Assembly (NCBI GenBank): GCA_030698225.1
Contig: JAUYNR010000087.1
Coordinates: 1 to 64,000, forward strand
From: Oxalobacteraceae bacterium
GTDB taxonomy: Bacteria; Pseudomonadota; Gammaproteobacteria; Burkholderiales; Burkholderiaceae_D
DNA: 64,000 nucleotides
Direction of reading: 5' to 3'
Position numbers and translations under genes: made by a program. Under the pieces are notes generated by a model. It was not told where the DNA came from and did not search any database. It was given only the letters and a program-made list of their open reading frames with translations. Below are positions 6,831 through 52,454 of this stretch, piece after piece (position 1 is the stretch's first letter; each line of letters opens with the position of its first letter).

Positions 6831-7062
6831 GTCCTCGAAAGACACGAAAGGCACGAAAAAAATCGGTAATGGGTAAAGCAGGAGCTGGGGTGGCCACGCT
6901 GAAATAAACGACGTTCTTGTAGGAGCGCACCCGGGCGCGAACAGCTGTAGCTAACCATGAGCCGGTCGCGCCCAGGTGCGCTCCTACAAAAAACCGTGCG
7001 TCAGCCCAGTAGCGAAGCGCATCATGCCGTTAACCACTTTCGTGCTTTTCGTGTCTTTCGTG
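6831..7062. repeat. Imperfect inverted repeat flanking the REP (CGAAAGACACGAAAGGCACGAAA ... TTTCGTGCTTTTCGTGTCTTTCG)
   Basis: Left arm near 6834-6860, right arm near 7036-7061, reverse-complementary with few mismatches. Confidence 0.7.
6919..6987. repeat. REP/BIME type-1 copy
   Basis: GTAGGAGCGCACCCGGGCGCGAAC...GGTCGCGCCCAGGTGCGCTCCTAC. Confidence 0.9.
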
Positions 7063-12739: not shown

Positions 12740-12807
12740 CGTAGGTGCGAATTTATTCGCACTTTTAATTATTCTGTGCAAATTAGTGCGAATAAATTCG
12801 CACCTAC
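12740..12807. repeat. Inverted repeat GTAGGTGCGAATTTATTCGCAC ... GTGCGAATAAATTCGCACCTAC
   Basis: Near-perfect inverted arms; related copy at 22592-22663. Confidence 0.85.
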
Positions 12808-15776: not shown

Positions 15777-15834
15777 GTAGGAGCGGACCTGGCCGCGACC
15801 GGGCGCAAACAGTCGCGGCCAGGTCCGCTCCTAC
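15777..15834. repeat. REP type-2 copy
   Basis: GTAGGAGCGGACCTGGCCGCGACCGGGCGCAAACAGTCGCGGCCAGGTCCGCTCCTAC. Confidence 0.9.
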
Positions 15835-17461: not shown

Positions 17462-17532
17462 GTAGGAGCGCACCCGGGCGCGAAAGCAGTCGCCAGACTG
17501 CTGCCGTCGGTCGCGCCCGGGTGCGCTCCTAC
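17462..17532. repeat. REP/BIME type-1 copy
   Basis: GTAGGAGCGCACCCGGGCGCGAAAGCAGTCGCCAGACTGCTGCCGTCGGTCGCGCCCGGGTGCGCTCCTAC. Confidence 0.95.
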
Positions 17533-18461: not shown

Positions 18462-18532
18462 GTAGGAGCGCACCCGGGCGCGAAAGCAGTTGCCAGACTG
18501 CAGCCGTCGGTCGCGCCCCGGTGCGCTCCTAC
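18462..18532. repeat. REP/BIME type-1 copy
   Basis: GTAGGAGCGCACCCGGGCGCGAAAGCAGTTGCCAGACTGCAGCCGTCGGTCGCGCCCCGGTGCGCTCCTAC. Confidence 0.95.
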
Positions 18533-20043: not shown

Positions 20044-20114
20044 GTAGGAGCGCACCCGGGCGCGAACGCAGTTGCCAGACTGCTGCCGTCGGTCGCGCCC
20101 GGGTGCGCTCCTAC
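20044..20114. repeat. REP/BIME type-1 copy
   Basis: GTAGGAGCGCACCCGGGCGCGAACGCAGTTGCCAGACTGCTGCCGTCGGTCGCGCCCGGGTGCGCTCCTAC. Confidence 0.95.
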
Positions 20115-22470: not shown

Positions 22471-22591
22471 GCACGCGTAAATGCCTGTGCAACTGAGGGA
22501 GTAAGTACGCCCTACGCTATGCGACTTGCGGCCTTCACTGTGCCCCGTGAAAATTAGCAGCGATTATCTCCATGGCGATGCCATTGCGTTG

Positions 22592-22663
22592 CAGGCGCGA
22601 ATTCATTCGCACAAGCCCGCACAGAAAAATCAAAAATGCGAATAAATTCGCACCTACAACCCT
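22592..22663. repeat. Second copy of GTGCGAATTNATTCGCAC inverted repeat
   Basis: GCAGGCGCGAATTCATTCGCACAAG...AAATGCGAATAAATTCGCACCTAC. Confidence 0.75.
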
Positions 22664-22879: not shown

Positions 22880-22922
22880 GTAGGAGCGCACCCGGGCGCG
22901 AAGCAGCCGCCAGACTGCAGCT
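22880..22922. repeat. Truncated (5' half) REP type-1 copy
   Basis: GTAGGAGCGCACCCGGGCGCGAAGCAGCCGCCAGACTGCAGC, no second arm. Confidence 0.85.
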
Positions 22923-23157: not shown

Positions 23158-23229
23158 GTAGGAGCGCACCCGGGCGCGAAAGCAGTCGTCAGACTGCTGC
23201 CGTTGGTCGCGCCCGGGTGCGCTCCCCAC
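23158..23229. repeat. REP/BIME type-1 copy
   Basis: GTAGGAGCGCACCCGGGCGCGAAAGCAGTCGTCAGACTGCTGCCGTTGGTCGCGCCCGGGTGCGCTCCCCAC. Confidence 0.92.
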
Positions 23230-34859: not shown

Positions 34860-34928
34860 GTAGGAGCGCACCCGGGCGCGATAGGTCGTGGCAGAGTTGA
34901 GGTTGGTCGCGCCCGGGTGCGCTCCCAC
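34860..34928. repeat. REP/BIME type-1 copy (subvariant with GGTCGTGGCAGAGTTGA spacer)
   Basis: GTAGGAGCGCACCCGGGCGCGATAGGTCGTGGCAGAGTTGAGGTTGGTCGCGCCCGGGTGCGCTCCCAC. Confidence 0.93.
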
Positions 34929-38422: not shown

Positions 38423-38491
38423 GTAGGAGCGCACCCGGGCGCGACAGGTCGTGGCAGAGTTGATGTTGATCGTGCCCGGGTACGCTCCTAC
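38423..38491. repeat. REP/BIME type-1 copy (same subvariant as 34860)
   Basis: GTAGGAGCGCACCCGGGCGCGACAGGTCGTGGCAGAGTTGATGTTGATCGTGCCCGGGTACGCTCCTAC. Confidence 0.93.
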
Positions 38492-41341: not shown

Positions 41342-41403
41342 TGTCGCGCCCGGGTGCGCTGCTACAAAGACTTCCACACTTGTAGGAGCGCACCCGGGCG
41401 CGA
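41342..41403. repeat. Two REP half-sites in opposite orientation upstream of the RAYT gene
   Basis: TCGCGCCCGGGTGCGCTGCTACA then TGTAGGAGCGCACCCGGGCGCGAC. Confidence 0.9.
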
Positions 41404-41432
41404 CCGGACTGTGATCAACTGCGGTGTTCGCC

Positions 41433-41930
41433 ATGACACAAACATCCGATCAGCCGGAAATAACTACAAAGTATCCAGGCGAAGGCCATGTGGCATTACG
41501 GCATGGTCGGGTGTCAATGACAGGCCAGATATACCATGTGTCAACGGCAACAGTTGGTCGATCCAGATTATTTGATGACTTTACGGCCGGCTGCGCCGCC
41601 GCTCGGTGTTTCGAGAGCCGTGCCGCGTTGGGTGATGCGCAAATGCTGGCGTGGGTGCTGATGCCGGATCACGTGCATTGGCTGATTGGTTTGGGCGAAC
41701 GATATACTCTTGATATTCTTGTCAGTCGTCTTAAAGCGACAAGTGCCCGCAGTGTTAATCAAATATCACATCGAGCCGGTGCGGTGTGGTCGCGGGCATA
41801 CCACGACCACGCGCTGCGCGGCGATGAGGATGTGGCGTCTGTTGCGCGTTATATCGTTGCCAATCCCTTGCGCGCCGGGTTGGTGAAATCGGTGGCACAT
41901 TATCCGTTCTGGAACGCGGTGTTTTTGTAG
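41433..41930 (+). mobile_element. REP-associated tyrosine transposase (RAYT, IS200/IS605-like Y1 HUH)
   Basis: LAWVLMPDHVHWLIGL (HUH), VARYIVANPLRAGL (catalytic Tyr region), flanked on both sides by the window's REP. Confidence 0.92.
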
Positions 41931-42067
41931 GAGCGCACCCGGGCGCGACAGGTGTGCGACGGGCTGCATAAGGCGCTGATGAATAAATTGTATCTGGAGC
42001 CGGTGTGTCGCTTGTTCGCCCGGATTGCGTGAGCCGCGGGTGATCGCGCCCGGGTGCGCTCCTACAG
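41927..42067. repeat. REP pair with long spacer downstream of RAYT; its GTAG supplies the RAYT stop codon
   Basis: TTTTTGTAGGAGCGCACCCGGGCGCGACAGG ... TGATCGCGCCCGGGTGCGCTCCTAC. Confidence 0.92.
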
Positions 42068-42117
42068 GAATGCGGTTGATCGTACTCCTGCAGGGTTTTG
42101 ATTGAATTGGATTTGCA

Positions 42118-43419
42118 TTGAACATACTGATGCTACGGGCCTACTCCCTGGCATGGTGGCTTGCCATGCCTGCGGTGCTGGCGCGGCTGTGGTGGCGCGG
42201 CCGCAGGGAGTCCGGCTATCGGCAGCATTTGGCCGAGCGCTTCGGATGGTATCCCGGCGCGGCGCTGACCGGCCATAAGGTTTTATGGCTGCATGCGGTG
42301 TCGGTCGGCGAGACGCGCGCAGCCGAGCCGCTGATCGATGCCTTGCTGGCAGCCTATCCTGAACACACGATTTTACTCACCCACATGACGCCCACCGGAC
42401 GCGCCACCGGCCGGGCGCTGTTTGCCAAATATGGGTCGCGCGTGCTGCAGAGCTACCTGCCATACGATACCGGCTGGATGGCGGCGCGCTTCCTGCGCCA
42501 TTTCTCGCCGCAGATTTGCCTGCTGATGGAAACCGAGGTCTGGCCGAACCTGATTGCGCAGTGCATGGCGCAGCGGGTGCCGGTGGCATTGCTCAATGCC
42601 CGGCTGTCGGCGCGTTCGATGCGTCGGGCGCAGCGTTTTTCCGGCTTGATGCGCGCGGCGGCGCAGGGCCTGTCGTGCGTGGCGGCGCAGACGCCGGCAG
42701 ATGCAGCGCGCCTGCAGCAGATCGGCGCGCGCAACGTGCAAGTCACCGGCAGCATCAAGTTCGACGTGCTGCCGCCCGGCGCTGCGCTGGCGTTGGGGGA
42801 CGTTCTGCGCGCGCAGATCGGCACGCGCCCGGTGCTGCTGTGCGCCAGCACCCGGGATGGGGAAGAGGCGCTGCTTCTCGACGCGCTGCAAGCTGCCGGC
42901 GAAGCCTGCGGCGAGATGCTGCTGTTGCTGGTGCCGCGCCACCCGCAGCGCTTCGATGCGGTGGCGCAACTGGTGAAGGCGCGCGGCCTGGTCCTGCGGC
43001 GCCGTTCGTCGCTGAATGCTGCAATGGCAGGGGAACCGATAGCGCCGCAGGTGCGGGTGCTGCTGGGCGATTCGATGGGAGAGATGTTTGCCTATTACGC
43101 GGCTTGCGACGTCGCCTTCATCGGCGGCAGCCTGCTGCCGCTGGGCGGGCAGAATCTGATCGAAGCTTGCGCGCTGGGCAAGCCGGTGCTGACCGGGCCG
43201 CATACCTTCAATTTTGCCGACGTGACCGAACAGGCGATCGCCGCCGGTGCCGCGCGGCGCGTCGCCGATGCCGCCGCATTGCTGCGCGAAGCAGCGGTTT
43301 TATTGTCGGATACAAAGCAGCGGGAGTCGGCCGGATGCGCAGCGCTTGCTTTTGCGCAGCGCCATCGCGGCGCCACCAGGCGTACGCTGGCGCTGCTGCG
43401 GGCGCTGATTTCGGGGTGA
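42118..43419 (+). CDS. waaA: 3-deoxy-D-manno-octulosonic acid transferase
   Basis: LWLHAVSVGETRAAEPLIDALL, FIGGSLLPLGGQNLIEACALGKPVLTGPHTFNF. Confidence 0.95.
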   Translation: MNILMLRAYSLAWWLAMPAVLARLWWRGRRESGYRQHLAERFGWYPGAALTGHKVLWLHAVSVGETRAAEPLIDALLAAYPEHTILLTHMTPTGRATGRALFAKYGSRVLQSYLPYDTGWMAARFLRHFSPQICLLMETEVWPNLIAQCMAQRVPVALLNARLSARSMRRAQRFSGLMRAAAQGLSCVAAQTPADAARLQQIGARNVQVTGSIKFDVLPPGAALALGDVLRAQIGTRPVLLCASTRDGEEALLLDALQAAGEACGEMLLLLVPRHPQRFDAVAQLVKARGLVLRRRSSLNAAMAGEPIAPQVRVLLGDSMGEMFAYYAACDVAFIGGSLLPLGGQNLIEACALGKPVLTGPHTFNFADVTEQAIAAGAARRVADAAALLREAAVLLSDTKQRESAGCAALAFAQRHRGATRRTLALLRALISG

Positions 43420-44114: not shown

Positions 44115-44183
44115 GTAGGAGCGCACCCGGGCGCGACAGGATTGCCTATAGTGACCGATGGTCGCGCCCGGGTGCGCTCCTAC
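44115..44183. repeat. REP/BIME type-1 copy
   Basis: GTAGGAGCGCACCCGGGCGCGACAGGATTGCCTATAGTGACCGATGGTCGCGCCCGGGTGCGCTCCTAC. Confidence 0.95.
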
Positions 44184-49388: not shown

Positions 49389-49457
49389 GTAGGAGCGCAC
49401 CCGGGCGCGACCGGATTGCCAATAGCACCCGGTGATCGCGCCCGGGTGCGCTCCTAC
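49389..49457. repeat. REP/BIME type-1 copy
   Basis: GTAGGAGCGCACCCGGGCGCGACCGGATTGCCAATAGCACCCGGTGATCGCGCCCGGGTGCGCTCCTAC. Confidence 0.95.
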
Positions 49458-49567
49458 AAAGCCACGCCACTGCACTTTTGACAGAACTGATATGCGACGG
49501 AACAATTACCGTTAAAAGACAATAAATCCACCCACCGCCCGCCCATTTCGCATTGCCTGCCGCTTCA

Positions 49568-52371: not shown

Positions 52372-52454
52372 GGAGCGGACCCGGCCGCGACCGGCTCTTA
52401 CCCGACTCCGATATCAGTCCTTTCAGGACTGTTCGCGCCCGGGTGCGCTCCTAC
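52372..52454. repeat. Hybrid REP (type-2 left arm, type-1 right arm)
   Basis: GGAGCGGACCCGGCCGCGACCGG ... TTCGCGCCCGGGTGCGCTCCTAC. Confidence 0.85.

Follow-up and report, generated by a model that had tools for sequence, protein, structure and literature searches.

We analyzed a 64,000-nt stretch of DNA (here, the window) from the draft genome of a Glaciimonas-like bacterium (G000; 123 contigs, 92.65% complete, 2% contamination) and compared it with three congeners in the same genus (G001, G002, and G003), whose genomes are also drafts. The window contains a gene for a RAYT, a Y1 HUH tyrosine transposase, that lies between two pairs of REPs of one family (F1). Further F1 REPs are dispersed over the window, most of them as inverted pairs (REPINs), together with two units of a second family, F2 (Table 1). 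The RAYT open reading frame starts with an ATG at position 41433 or, alternatively, with a GTG at 41424 and ends with a TAG at 41928-41930, which gives a protein of 165 to 168 amino acids.

Table 1. Positions of the RAYT gene, REPs, and REPINs in the window
Feature	Position	Strand	Remarks
RAYT gene, group-3 Y1 HUH tyrosine transposase	41433..41930	+	Assigned by profile, fold, and catalytic residues
Upstream REP, F1	41344..41365	-	1 mismatch
Upstream REP, F1	41382..41403	+	Exact
Downstream REP, F1	41927..41948	+	Exact; GTAG head holds RAYT stop 41928-41930
Downstream inverted REP, F1	42044..42065	-	Exact; 95-nt spacer
F1 REPIN, 69 nt	6919..6987
Variant F1-like REPIN, 58 nt	15777..15834		3 mismatches; TIR-like motif 48 nt leftward
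F1 REPIN, 71 nt	17462..17532
F1 REPIN, 71 nt	18462..18532
F1 REPIN, 71 nt	20044..20114
F1 REP singlet	22880..22901	+	TIR-like motif 48 nt leftward
F1 REPIN, 71 nt	23158..23228
F1 REPIN, 69 nt	34860..34928		Orthologous site in G002 also has a REPIN
F1 REPIN, 69 nt	38423..38491		Corresponding G002 interval without REP
F1 REPIN, 69 nt	44115..44183		Corresponding G002 interval without REP
F1 REPIN inside TIR composite	49389..49457		TIR copy at 49496-49509
F1 REP singlet	52433..52454	-
F2 REPIN (GTAGGTGCGAATTTATTCGCA)	12741..12807
F2 REPIN (22591-22657) plus ~47-nt arm before it	22544..22657		Arm matches the C110 RAYT gene at its 3′ end

A preliminary description of this DNA had identified the gene product as a Y1 HUH protein, and the assignment is borne out at each level that we examined. 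The protein scores 129.6 bits (7.9e-38) against the curated profile model NF047646, for which the cutoff is 80, and 29.4 bits against the IS200 model, which is below the cutoff of 55. It contains a Y1 transposase domain (Pfam Y1_Tnp), and the HUH histidines H80 and H82 and the catalytic tyrosine Y140 are invariant across 38 homologs. The best structure match to its AlphaFold2 model (pLDDT, 90.7) is TnpA-REP (PDB 4ER8; E = 4e-9), in agreement with a sequence search. By profile, fold, and catalytic residues, the open reading frame thus belongs to the group-3 RAYT/TnpA-REP family.

The relatives of the protein at 50 to 61% identity come from Pseudomonas, Stenotrophomonas, Luteimonas, and Methylovulum, with one in Desulfobulbus, and in the RAYT tree it groups among Lysobacteraceae, Pseudomonas, and Methylovulum proteins. 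G000 encodes two further group-3 RAYTs, on contigs C110 and C107, that are 46 to 47% identical to the window RAYT. The three proteins fall in separate clades, each with its own REP family, and the simplest reading of these sequences is that G000 gained its RAYTs horizontally on three independent occasions. The REP family of the third RAYT (on C107) is small: it has nine matches in the genome, six of which lie on this 44.7-kb contig. The window RAYT itself is present in one copy in the G000 genome, as expected of a gene that does not transpose itself. Compared with its ortholog in G002, it has a dN/dS of 0.12; the gene is under purifying selection, and the protein is therefore being kept.

The REPs next to the RAYT gene differ in part from what had been described. 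The supposed half-sites upstream are actually two complete 22-nt REPs, with their CTAC and GTAG heads pointing inward and 16 nt between them. The reported inverted pair of the same family 3′ of the gene is present, with both REPs exact, and its spacer is 95 nt long versus the usual 24 to 27 nt. As DNA, a lone F1 REP folds weakly, into a hairpin with a 4-bp stem (-4.3 kcal/mol), and the downstream pair folds strongly as a unit (151 nt; z = -7).

As also described previously, the RAYT stop codon consists of bases 2 to 4 of the GTAG in the first downstream REP. This fusion of gene and repeat is real but not unique to the locus. In a survey of 69 distinct group-3 RAYT loci, 20 terminate with a TAG inside a GTAG, and in 11 the sequence after the GTAG stop is found again as a REP within the locus; the latter include the second G000 RAYT as well as loci from Stenotrophomonas, Luteimonas, and Methylovulum. 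Previous studies have shown that GTAG REPs often supply the TAG stop of flanking open reading frames, that RAYT 3′ ends may overlap REPs (PMC3733652), and that REPs may sit directly 3′ of the RAYT stop codon (PMC2817692). Because 11 of the 69 RAYTs share the fusion and these studies report it, it is recurrent and already known. The overlap would then represent the usual tight abutment of a RAYT and its downstream REP, the GTAG head of which can act as a stop. Alternatively, the overlap could be a regulatory device in which REP structure at the stop limits RAYT translation, as its recurrence in 11 RAYTs may suggest and as REPs close to stop codons in E. coli reportedly lower translation. We find this decidedly improbable, as the overlap is not conserved: it is absent from most RAYTs, and in the G002 ortholog 15 nt separate the stop from the REP. 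Furthermore, the predicted fold of a 61-nt mRNA segment was no more stable than those of shuffled sequences (z = 0.81), and we rejected a translation-control structure at the stop on this ground, although the whole REP pair does form a strong hairpin beside this null result. No known RNA family matched at the gathering threshold.

Outside the RAYT locus, F1 REPs are numerous. Allowing up to three mismatches, we found 26 matches in the window (versus none in 100 dinucleotide shuffles), and the G000 genome holds 72 F1 REPs (versus none for a reversed-pattern control), mostly exact or with a single mismatch. Thirty of the 37 F1 units are plus-minus pairs, 29 of which span 68 to 71 nt. The units are thus dispersed, inverted REPs with a fixed short spacing, i.e., REPINs. 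An AT-rich stretch of ~60 nt beside several REPINs was rejected as part of the mobile unit because REP-free G000 sites and the orthologous G002 sites have it too. Near rhamnose-synthesis genes, three REPINs (at 17462, 20044, and 23158) have sequences on their left that are related to one another, which suggests local duplication events with a REPIN included.

The F1 units congregate around the RAYT. When the REPs flanking the RAYT itself and one variant unit are left out, 11 of 35 units fall on the RAYT contig, whose 69.9 kb represent 1.7% of the genome and on which 0.6 units are expected (P = 8e-12). Units are also found near the same site in G002 (3 of 15; P = 6e-4) and G003 (4 of 10; P = 2e-6), although the clusters of the three species share some sites and are therefore partly nonindependent. 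Because several of our tests were selected post hoc, their P values are descriptive. The REP family of the third RAYT is similarly local, with two of its four other units on the C107 contig. RAYT-proximal accumulation of REPs is known in Thauera and three marine gammaproteobacteria (Nunvar 2010, PMC2817692), and the F1 cluster is therefore a confirmation of the same phenomenon in a new genus. The clustering might instead reflect a permissive region, here an LPS/O-antigen locus with rearrangements, rather than proximity to the RAYT: several REPINs are located between rml and polysaccharide genes, related flanks recur together with REPINs, and the RAYT contig also contains two F2 units (P = 0.025). 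The enrichment of F1 is, however, far above that of F2, units of the third REP family gather around their cognate RAYT on a different contig, and REPs accumulate near RAYTs in other bacteria too. A permissive region is therefore a very unlikely explanation, and we favor proximity to the RAYT.

We then compared the RAYT and the F1 REPs across the genus. The preliminary description had suggested checking whether RAYT presence correlates with REP copy number, and F1 REP numbers do follow the RAYT in the four congeners: 72 in G000 and 30 in G002, which both carry the RAYT; 16 in G003, which has no close RAYT; and 0 in G001, which has none. This relation does not extend to F2 (see below). The other 56 genomes sampled, 32 of them from the same family, each gave no more than a single weak REP match, and none had a close RAYT; the F1 REP family is genus specific. 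In G002, the RAYT occupies the same site, between a phosphomannomutase gene and LPS core genes. The orthologous site in G003 (L087:8960-9690, contig C29) contains a RelB antitoxin and YafQ toxin pair in place of the RAYT, and the junction includes a stretch of 26 nt also found in G002, the last 12 nt of which belong to the upstream REP. At this locus, G002 and G003 are ~95% identical, versus roughly 82 to 87% for either against G000. As G002 and G003 are the closest relatives, the most parsimonious history is that the common ancestor of the three species carried the RAYT and that G003 then lost it. The preliminary description had also held that relatives with many REPs that never had the RAYT would contradict its role. 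For F1, G003 is not such a case because it retains the REP footprint at the orthologous site. Between the RAYT site and waaA, G002 and G003 carry a heptosyltransferase-like gene that is missing in G000 (window 42066-42170), where its start appears fused to waaA (open reading frame 42118-43419).

Many of the dispersed F1 copies are located inside a ~168-nt composite bounded by 14-nt terminal inverted repeats (TIRs) with the sequence GTAACTATTCAGCC. In three species, the F1 REPINs are flanked by conserved arms of ~48 nt that end outward in this sequence; the two arms of the composite differ from each other, and each is conserved. The distance from TIR to REP is 47 to 49 nt in most TIR-bearing units of the three species, and this constancy suggests a single composite rather than repeated chance insertions. 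At least one TIR arm (up to four mismatches) was found in 14 of 37 units in G000, 10 of 18 in G002, and 6 of 10 in G003, compared with 7.5% for shuffled arms. In G002, TIR-bearing units are absent near the RAYT (0 of 7, versus 10 of 11 far from it; P = 2.5e-4 by Fisher's test), and G000 (3 of 15 versus 11 of 22; P = 0.09) and G003 (1 of 4 versus 5 of 6; P = 0.19) show a trend in the same direction. At least five G000 units, together with their arms, are missing from the aligned G002 intervals, as judged from approximate alignments of diverged intergenic DNA, for which ~2.0 of the 3.8 Mb of G002 was read directly. TIR elements also occur without F1 REPs: there is an empty 40-nt form in G002 and a 103-nt form in the REP-free G001, and such elements in G000 hold other hairpins inside. 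We also noted an intergenic inverted-repeat family with GTAACTATTCAGCCCGCTATGG ends, 40 to 260 nt long and with varied inner hairpins, in G000 (L317, L323-L325, L330, and L333; window 49496-49509) and, there without REPs, in G001.

F1 may accordingly have spread by two routes, with the RAYT building the local cluster and many of the genome-wide copies traveling as passengers in the ~168-nt element, driven by another mover. The constant TIR-to-REP distance, the two distinct and conserved arms, and the G000 units missing with their arms from G002 are consistent with this reading, and the existence of REP-free TIR elements and the rarity of TIR-bearing units near the RAYT suggest that some of the genome-wide spread may have bypassed the RAYT. 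On the other hand, the near/far contrast is significant in G002 only, the alignments are rough, and REPINs may instead have entered preexisting palindromes, as in other GTAG families (PMC3733652). As a candidate MITE of a DDE transposon, the composite has 14-nt TIRs, but no autonomous transposon was seen (no TIR pair lay 1 to 2.5 kb apart among the TIR pairs listed), nor were clear target-site duplications at the composite. For the last two reasons, we retain the second route as a rival and not as a result, a plausible one that falls somewhat short of probable. As for the origin of the arms, nhmmer gave no match of the main F1 arms at any RAYT 3′ end, and we rejected them as homologs of the window RAYT 3′ end; only a few copies (L016 and L030) have an 18- to 20-nt REP-proximal match to it. 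Homology between the downstream arm in the window and arm A of the composite was likewise unconvincing (1 of 22 arms).

The second family gives a different picture. Of 50 F2 arms outside the RAYT locus, 11 match the terminal ~48 nt of the C110 RAYT gene, and the match extends to the REP head. None of 500 shuffles reached the match score, and among the F1 arms such a match is confined to the two located at the 3′ end of the F1 RAYT itself. Some F2 arms still encode RAYT ends in frame (e.g., KNIGNHPDRDAIRL-stop), and because RAYT proteins conserve this motif, the gene is the source and the arm its derivative. Dispersed F2 REPINs with such an arm were seen in three species (window 22544-22657, C10:209696 and C14:324328 in G002, and others). 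Nunvar reported RAYT 3′ ends captured in RAYT-adjacent BIMEs (PMC2817692), whereas here the 3′ ends are found on dispersed REPINs. An earlier proposal derives REPINs from the termini of an ancestral element (PMC3116915), and the sequences of the F2 arms support, but do not prove, the idea that REPINs arose from truncated REPtrons. In a broader version of this idea, the REPINs of the genus would be truncated REPtrons, the stop-REP fusion would mark the end of the ancestral mobile unit, and F1 would later have spread also inside the 168-nt element. The dispersing unit would be a RAYT 3′ end plus a REP pair, as seen in at least 11 F2 arms in three species; we put this version forward tentatively, as possible but on the unlikely side. 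F2 units do not cluster at their RAYT. Moreover, F2 REPs are more common in G002 (46) and G003 (54), in which the F2 RAYT was not found, than in G000 (29), in which it is present, and RAYT presence therefore does not always predict REP number.

Taken as a whole, the locus is very probably an intact REPtron, a group-3 RAYT between REPs of its own family, and this is the best explanation for the observations, including the local spread of REPINs. The earlier proposal of a candidate REPtron thus agrees with the profile, fold, and catalytic residues of the RAYT and with the F1 REPs on both of its sides. The RAYT would have been gained horizontally from gammaproteobacteria and retained under purifying selection in Glaciimonas. 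By analogy to characterized TnpA-REP, it would bind single-stranded, GTAG-headed REP hairpins and would cut and rejoin DNA beside them (at a CT dinucleotide), with single-stranded DNA containing GTAGGAGCGCACCCGGGCGCGA as the candidate substrate. Group-3 enzymes are known to cleave REPs in vitro (PMC8266576). REP pairs (REPINs of 68 to 71 nt) would be copied or moved mainly into DNA near the RAYT, leading to the cluster in the window; the preference for nearby targets is suggested by the map. Among the observations that speak against the REPtron explanation are the sites shared by the clusters of the three species, the lack of F2 clustering at its RAYT, the abundance of F2 without its RAYT, which makes RAYT presence no general predictor, and the weak folding of a lone REP. 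The preliminary description had further named the RAYT as the probable driver of the dispersed repeats. This role is well supported for the local F1 cluster but less secure for the distant copies, many of which lie in the TIR element that is also found REP-free.

Another view is that the RAYT has been domesticated for a host role and that the REPs are relics that are no longer mobilized. The gene is single copy and under purifying selection, as this view would have it, and RAYTs are generally regarded as genes that do not mobilize themselves (PMC2817692, PMC3116915). However, the near identity of most F1 copies in G000 and the several G000 sites that are empty in G002 point to activity after the species split, and we consider domestication unlikely.

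The locus resembles known group-3 REPtrons (Stenotrophomonas maltophilia REPtron Sm, Pseudomonas, and Thauera; PMC2817692, PMC8266576) in its Y1 HUH protein with a conserved C-terminal W-x-A-x-W-L, in the GTAG-headed REPs on both sides, and in the cognate REP family in the genome. Unlike in those systems, the REP stem is imperfect (4 bp with a 6-nt loop), the upstream heads point inward, and a sister species has lost the RAYT with a footprint left behind. The RAYT-proximal accumulation resembles that in Thauera, and a gammaproteobacterial ancestry in a betaproteobacterium is a further feature in common with these systems. Like the REPINs of Bertels and Rainey (2011, PMC3116915), the dominant F1 form is a miniature, nonautonomous, inverted REP doublet of 68 to 71 nt; unlike in those REPINs, many F1 copies are part of a longer composite with conserved ~48-nt arms, and in F2 one arm consists of a RAYT gene 3′ end. 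The use of the TAG of GTAG as a stop is shared with other GTAG REPs (Di Nocera 2013, PMC3733652), and dimers within longer palindromes are also known from A. variabilis GTAG-15 and T. roseum GTAG-23 (PMC3733652), but here REP-free host palindromes exist in the same genus, even in a REP-free species. The fold and catalytic residues are those of the group-2 E. coli TnpA-REP (PDB 4ER8), from which the protein differs in its sequence (22% identity) and REP type.

These findings bear on the origin of REPINs, for which derivation from the termini of an ancestral element has been proposed (PMC3116915), and on whether RAYTs drive the spread of REPINs. The genus comprises closely related species in which the RAYT is present, replaced with a footprint, or absent, as well as two REP families with opposite relations between RAYT and REPs. 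The TIR composite serves as a warning that REP copy number alone may not gauge RAYT activity, and REPINs that still bear RAYT coding ends would directly support the proposed origin of REPINs from the ends of an ancestral element.
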